Shown here: piece after piece, positions 3,591 to 50,402 of the stretch
How the letters are laid out: the number at the start of each line of letters is the position of its first letter
How positions within the stretch are numbered: position 1 is the first letter of the stretch
DNA from: Echinarachnius parma
Lineage: Eukaryota > Echinodermata > Echinoidea > Clypeasteroida > Echinarachniidae
Direction: 5' to 3'
Assembly (NCBI GenBank): GCA_037951105.1
Contig: JBAMJV010007117.1
Span: 1 to 64,000, forward strand
Length of the DNA stretch: 64,000 nucleotides
Made by a program: the position numbers and the translations under genes
The notes under the pieces: generated by a model
Told to the model about the DNA's origin: nothing
Database searches by the model: none
The model's input: only the letters and a program-made list of their open reading frames with translations

Positions 3591-3905
3591 TTCCTGAAGC
3601 ACCGTTCTTTACTGGCTGTCCCTCGGATATAACTGTGAATTCCAATTCTGGGAACACAGTCAATATCACATGGATACCGCCCACTGCATTGGACCTCCCT
3701 TTGCCTATGATCCGTGCAACTTTAGAAACTCCAGAATCTCCAGTCGCGCGAGGCTCGTTTCACACGGACAACTCCGGGGAGGTTACTATAACTTCAGACT
3801 ATAATCCTGGAGACTCGTTTTCCATCGGGAGAACGACAGTGACCTACACCGCTACAGGGGCATCGGGAAACATTGCAACGTGTACGTTTAGTGTCACGGT
3901 AGTAG
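3591..3905 (+). CDS. Receptor exon 1 in window: HYR domain with a 25-residue insertion
   Basis: Phase 1-1 exon of 315 bases. It reads VPEAPFFTGCPSDITVNS at the start and GNIATCTFSVTVV at the end, with the two conserved HYR cysteines (GCPSD and ATCTF). Unlike all other HYR exons here it carries 75 extra bases (3689-3763, 25 codons) between the PPTA and TDNSG motifs. It ends at a consensus GTAAGT donor. The acceptor TTAG is preceded by a TTTACGAGACGTTCGTT motif shared with the other HYR introns. Confidence 0.85.

Positions 3906-50402: not shown

Follow-up and report, generated by a model that had tools for sequence, protein, structure and literature searches.

The HYR module is used in the hyaline layer of echinoderms. 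Among adhesion GPCRs, the ADGRF receptors carry SEA and then Ig repeats before GAIN; ADGRF5 (GPR116), for instance, contains SEA, Ig and GAIN, with Ig after SEA. ADGRG7 (GPR128) is, to our knowledge, without HYR, Ig or SEA. In the available part of PMC6954182, the domain order of ADGRG6 (GPR126) is CUB-PTX-SEA-HormR-GAIN, and that of PMC13197933 gives SEA-HormR-GAIN for ADGRG4. HYR modules also occur in egg-surface proteins: the accessible text of PMC5521101 describes a sea urchin egg receptor candidate, EBR1_5, with seven HYR, SEA and a transmembrane domain, and reports positive selection in three of these HYRs. A role in cell or gamete recognition has been proposed for the HYR-bearing egg receptors of sea urchins. 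In the open PMC literature, including the accessible portions of PMC12716839, PMC6954182, PMC5521101, PMC13197933 and PMC9759900, we found no description of an adhesion GPCR that bears HYR. One of these, PMC12716839, has index entries under 'hyalin repeat' and 'HYR domain' and may contain a prior mention in its remaining text; its adhesion GPCR section has no HYR passage. As far as these sources go, HYR joined to an adhesion GPCR is a new combination of known parts, and relatives of the receptor described below may already be annotated elsewhere.

The window analysed here is the first 64 kb (64,000 bases) of a contig of 178,193 bases from Echinarachnius parma (C7108), and genome-wide searches covered the assembly of 14,790 contigs, 1.2 Gb in total. 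One mitochondrial COI gene of this assembly, translated under several codes, makes most sense with the echinoderm code, also listed for flatworms: an AAA codon within it stands at a position suited to N and not K, and ATA suits I. This is in keeping with an echinoderm as the most likely source. The final spliced model lies on the plus strand from 3591 to 50402 and comprises 30 exons encoding 2176 residues, with a single stop at the very end. All 29 introns are GT-AG, phases are consistent and there is no internal stop. The first-pass annotation was right in its exon count and in both end coordinates. Its architecture of 15 HYR, Ig, SEA, GAIN and 7TM also stands for these parts (SEA being sub-threshold), but it had missed a HormR-like module between SEA and GAIN; the domain order of the model is 15 HYR - Ig - SEA - HormR-like - GAIN/GPS - 7TM. 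The exons divide into 15 for HYR, one for Ig, two for SEA, two for the HormR-like module, four for GAIN, one for GPS and five for 7TM:

3591-3905, plus strand: HYR exon 1, phase 1-1, with an in-frame insertion of ~25 aa relative to the others; acceptor CATTAG, donor GTAAGT
4414-4659, plus strand: HYR exon 2
24081-24320 and 24735-24974, plus strand: HYR exons 3-4
26195-28867, plus strand: HYR exons 5-8, first copy of a four-exon block of ~3.9 kb
30106-32778, plus strand: HYR exons 9-12, second copy of the four-exon block of ~3.9 kb
33656-33895, 34318-34557 and 35536-35775, plus strand: HYR exons 13-15
36649-37173, unstranded: interspersed repeat in the HYR15-Ig intron, with copies at 61635, 52601 (minus) and 13704
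37195-37464, plus strand: Ig exon (Pfam Ig_3, 3e-8), with HYR-derived acceptor and first 15 nt
38384-38502 and 38882-39110, plus strand: SEA domain in two exons, containing FRPG-SVIV
40332-40445 and 41935-42059, plus strand: HormR-like Cys module in two exons, conserved in paralogues
43000-43146, 43839-44024, 44632-44784 and 45271-45537, plus strand: GAIN exons 1-4, conserved in paralogues
46157-46330, plus strand: GPS exon (Pfam GPS, 1e-9)
46786-46895, 48044-48327, 48491-48557, 48969-49227 and 50058-50402, plus strand: 7TM and C-tail in five exons

This model is an automatic DP model corrected by hand, then against paralogues. The automatic version lacked TM1 as well as the first of the HormR exons, and it included extra exons of low complexity. 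A first model of 31 exons, with a third Cys exon at 41812-41894, was dropped because that exon needs a 48-base intron, was not found in any of the eight paralogues scanned over this interval and resembles sequence elsewhere. The AATAAA at the 3' end overlaps the stop codon. At the 5' end, the gene probably does not begin at position 3591, and the N-terminus of the receptor is probably outside the window. A scan of the window, run without a positive control and hence a weak negative, found no signal-peptide exon, and the contig begins at base 1; 15 HYRs is therefore probably a minimum count. A 122-base tandem repeat occupies the very start of the contig (2-802), and the assembly may have broken there. 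A search with window 3000-5200 for a haplotig that covers the 5' end found no contig of near-identical sequence; outside this contig, the best match of at least 500 bases was 85%.

Searched against Pfam, as the first-pass annotation had suggested, the predicted spliced product matched HYR, Ig_3, GPS and 7tm_2. The first three HYRs gave an E-value of 2.8e-52 (175.4 bits, cut-off 21.7), and the 7TM part matched 7tm_2 at 2.1e-39 (135.7 bits, cut-off 20.6), which is of class B2 type. SEA reached 2.3e-4 and 21.7 bits, below its cut-off of 26.4; sub-threshold SEA matches were likewise obtained in four of the five family members scanned. The HormR-like module had no HRM match in Pfam and matched GPR128_N at 0.003 and 0.018, and GAIN matched GPR128_GAIN_subdomA at 0.027-0.075, all below the Pfam cut-offs. 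A paralogue profile of SEA-HormR-GAIN1 found no match in PDB at E up to 10.

Searched alone against PDB with phmmer, the 7TM part scored 117.5 bits with ADGRG2, 114.2 with G4 and 113.3 with G6; 113.0-108.1 with ADGRL3, 110.4 with L2 and 84.7 with L4; 100.7-98.0 with ADGRD1; 96.5-88.1 with ADGRE5 and 84.8 with E1; and 75.7, 74.2, 58.8 and 48.5 with ADGRG5, G3, G1 and ADGRV1, respectively. ADGRF1, the sole ADGRF among the matches, gave a far weaker 66.7-64.4 bits. With GAIN included, ADGRG6 and G2 stood at 157 bits, L3 at 148 and ADGRF1 at 95 or less. The lead of ADGRG over ADGRL is small. The SEA-HormR-GAIN order together with the 7TM scores suggests ADGRG (G2, G4, G6) rather than ADGRF. The likeness to ADGRF that had been proposed earlier is not supported: here Ig precedes SEA, and a HormR-like module follows it. 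With ADGRG6 and ADGRG4 the receptor would have the SEA-HormR-GAIN-7TM order in common, with the qualification that SEA is sub-threshold and the HormR-like module without HRM match; in the exons modelled, it differs in having the HYR array and Ig where ADGRG6 has CUB-PTX and ADGRG4 a pentraxin domain. ADGRG2 is alike by 7TM score only. The likeness to ADGRG7 lies in the sub-threshold GPR128 matches given above, weak ones, for the Cys module and for GAIN subdomain A; they agree with an ADGRG-like type. EBR1_5 resembles the receptor in HYR, SEA and a transmembrane domain but has no GAIN or 7TM in the accessible description (PMC5521101). We class the receptor as an ADGRG-like adhesion GPCR rather than as an orthologue of any one member; judged by these comparisons, its membrane-proximal half is ADGRG-like and its distal half is new.

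The case for a single gene turns on the junction between the two halves. A 20-base signature combining the HYR acceptor and exon start, TTAGATTCTCAAGCACCGAT, has 15 occurrences in the window at up to two mismatches, and all of them fall at HYR2 to HYR15 or at the Ig exon; 100 shuffles gave none. HYR1 is without it. Paralogous Ig exons begin at TGCC after (A/C)ACAG in all seven that were read, whereas the Ig exon of the window has 15 nt of HYR exon and then TGCC, with frame and phase kept. Intron DNA of HYR type, interrupted by the inserted repeat (36415-36651 and 37160-37210), continues as far as the Ig exon. This in-frame fusion of an HYR acceptor to the base at which the paralogous Ig exons begin would be exon shuffling caught in the act. 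On this genomic sequence we predict, with considerable confidence, that the HYR array and the adhesion GPCR form one gene. That the array is joined to an intact GAIN/GPS and 7TM, as read in the first-pass annotation, has strong support from the genome. We consider it unlikely that two neighbouring genes are present, a secreted hyalin-like HYR gene and a downstream Ig-SEA-HormR-GAIN-7TM receptor, co-duplicated and transcribed apart. HYR arrays are indeed common in the genome, many having no receptor match on their contig among the matches listed (150 scored of 2536 first-look candidates), and no HYR was found in the upstream stretches read for five paralogous receptors. Against two genes, the Ig exon has come to use an acceptor of HYR type, HYR15 closes with a consensus donor whose phase suits the Ig exon, and the scan, a weak negative as it was uncontrolled, picked up no signal-peptide exon between HYR15 and Ig.

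Within the predicted single gene, all 15 HYR exons are of phase 1 at both ends, the incoming phase of HYR1 following from its open frame. Their acceptors are TTAG and their donors GTA(A/G)G; 14 of them measure 80-82 codons, HYR1 being longer. All 15 are matched by a profile made from HYR2-15 (14 of them by construction), HYR1 as two pieces. Duplication is visible at two scales: 5.35 kb of sequence recurs at 97.3%, with 11 gaps and an offset of ~3.9 kb, and the best alignments show units of two exons (~1.8-2.1 kb) recurring at 90-93%. We infer that the array grew by unequal crossing-over. A mis-assembly, in which the 3.9 kb block was doubled by the assembly and the number of copies is unreal, or a recently dying allele, would be very unlikely explanations. 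In their favour stand the high identity of the 5.35 kb repeat and a contig that begins in a tandem repeat; against them, 11 gaps at 97.3% are not those of an exact duplicate, 30 exons out of 30 are open and the exons compared are under constraint. The NG86 dN/dS among HYR2-15 has a median of 0.31, taken from the 75 of 91 pairs with dS above 0.05 (HYR1 left out, 16 pairs dropped, pairs not independent), and that of the Ig-GAIN part is 0.31-0.42 against all seven paralogues compared, the nearest of which, on C361, lies at dS 0.17.

HYR2 and HYR3 are separated by an intron of 19.4 kb. Inside it lie pieces of a LINE-type retrotransposon (RVT_1, Exo_endo_phos) on the minus strand at 6856-9106, and a 153-base tandem repeat at 18795-20371 (10.4 copies, 87% matches). 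Such a gap, with its minus-strand LINE and tandem array, could mean that the gene is real but that HYR1-2 (3.6-4.7 kb) come from another unit, leaving 13 HYRs here. We think this quite unlikely, as the donor of HYR2 and the acceptor of HYR3 both follow the consensus and agree in phase, and HYR2 is 93% identical to a consensus-like query written from the HYRs of the window.

Paralogues in the same genome support the view that the receptor belongs to a locally expanded family. Eight were examined upstream, and an HYR array of the window's type was found on the same strand in three: C5391 with five exons, C12309 with six and C7576B with six. These arrays are a further line of support for a single gene. 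Of these 17 HYR exons, 16 had their edges displayed, and 15 had a phase 1 acceptor and donor; the outermost exon of C5391 has no donor in register. Since the flanking blocks of the three are near-identical (95.5-97.3%), they carry the weight of roughly one independent case. The other five showed no HYR within the upstream lengths covered, 21.6 kb for C5372, 13 kb for C4583 and 5.9 kb for C6932A (each to the contig end), 20.5 kb for C361 and 11.5 kb for C7576A, so that these data do not establish an HYR array as a general feature of the receptor family. Further paralogues, such as C3787, C4902, C7324, C13669 and C9859, lay outside this comparison, and four pieces without HYR (L017 on C6932, L021 on C5447, L028 on C3719 and L029 on C6540) stop short of passing the Ig exon and are uninformative. 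Genome-wide, at least seven contigs have both GPS and HYR matches among the matches listed, by visual comparison of the lists; in six of these seven, among the matches listed, a GPS has an HYR on its own strand and upstream of it, C5277 being the exception. The distance is long on C7923 (27 kb) and C943 (57 kb), and C5391, C12309 and C7576 are near-copies.

The motifs of the membrane-proximal half suggest how the receptor could work. The GPS, CSCNHA/TNFAVLM, has its HxT cleavage site and tethered agonist intact (CSCNHATNFAVLM), and is intact in all three family members read; autoproteolysis and a tethered agonist are therefore expected. G-SVIV, which we take to be the motif at which some SEA domains self-cleave, is present in all eight family members compared, so that two cuts are possible. 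The C-tail carries NPTY, presumably an adaptor-type motif, in eight of nine family members, and NPTF in C9859.

We propose that HYR repeats, each a symmetric phase 1-1 exon, would have been gained by exon shuffling and then multiplied by unequal crossing-over, and that a recombination or deletion at the locus would have fused the 5' end of an HYR exon straight to the Ig exon. In the protein, the long HYR-Ig stalk would bind matrix or a neighbouring cell, the receptor would be cut at the GPS (HA/T) and possibly also at SEA (G/S), and a pull on the stalk or its release could free the tethered agonist TNFAVLM and switch the 7TM on. The HYRs themselves may bind matrix or other HYR proteins; by analogy with EBR1_5, as far as PMC5521101 describes it in its accessible part, candidate ligands are the HYR proteins present in the hyaline layer and at the egg surface. 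The locus is best read as coding for a receptor that cleaves itself, senses matrix or cells, and bears an HYR stalk that is shuffled and changes fast. A bolder version, which we hold to be unlikely, is a variable-ectodomain recognition receptor that translates HYR-based cell or gamete recognition directly into G-protein signalling; given symmetric phase 1-1 cassettes and turnover by unequal crossing-over, HYR number and type would then differ among alleles, paralogues and splice forms. As a matrix- or cell-sensing protein, the receptor would tie the HYR module of the hyaline layer and egg surface to signalling. If transcribed as modelled, it offers a testable case of how long stalks of repeats come to be added to adhesion GPCR ectodomains, and it would be a candidate for sensing contact with matrix or cells in echinoderms.

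Several minor features of the locus and genome may be recorded. On C7576 (104000-123999, L013 and L014), six HYR exons precede the HormR-GAIN exons, and the 20 kb read between the HYR array and the receptor yielded neither an Ig nor a SEA exon; this paralogue, C7576B, is possibly a natural domain-deletion variant in which HYR would join the HormR exon, in phase if the phase of the window holds there. A second, upstream Ig exon was suspected in paralogues and not supported by open frames. More distant receptors lie on C7923 (Ig 39% identical) and on C943 (Ig 33% identical), where matches to HYR, Ig, GPS and 7tm_2 succeed one another in this order on one strand. C2190 has an HYR array at 14983-44329, with more than 40 matches of the window's type and no receptor on that contig among the matches listed. 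Directly after the Ig donor of the window lie long runs of TAC and TTC triplets (37465-37933), and a TAC-rich intron likewise follows the Ig exons of C5391, C12309, C5372 and C4583. A degenerate duplicate of the TM2-3 exon is present in the preceding intron (47807-47923; local alignment score 59 versus a maximum of 29 in 200 shuffles). Finally, many of the top 7tm_2 matches, on C3765, C2272, C10128 and others, fall in open frames of at least 800 aa and represent intron-poor class B-type GPCR genes.
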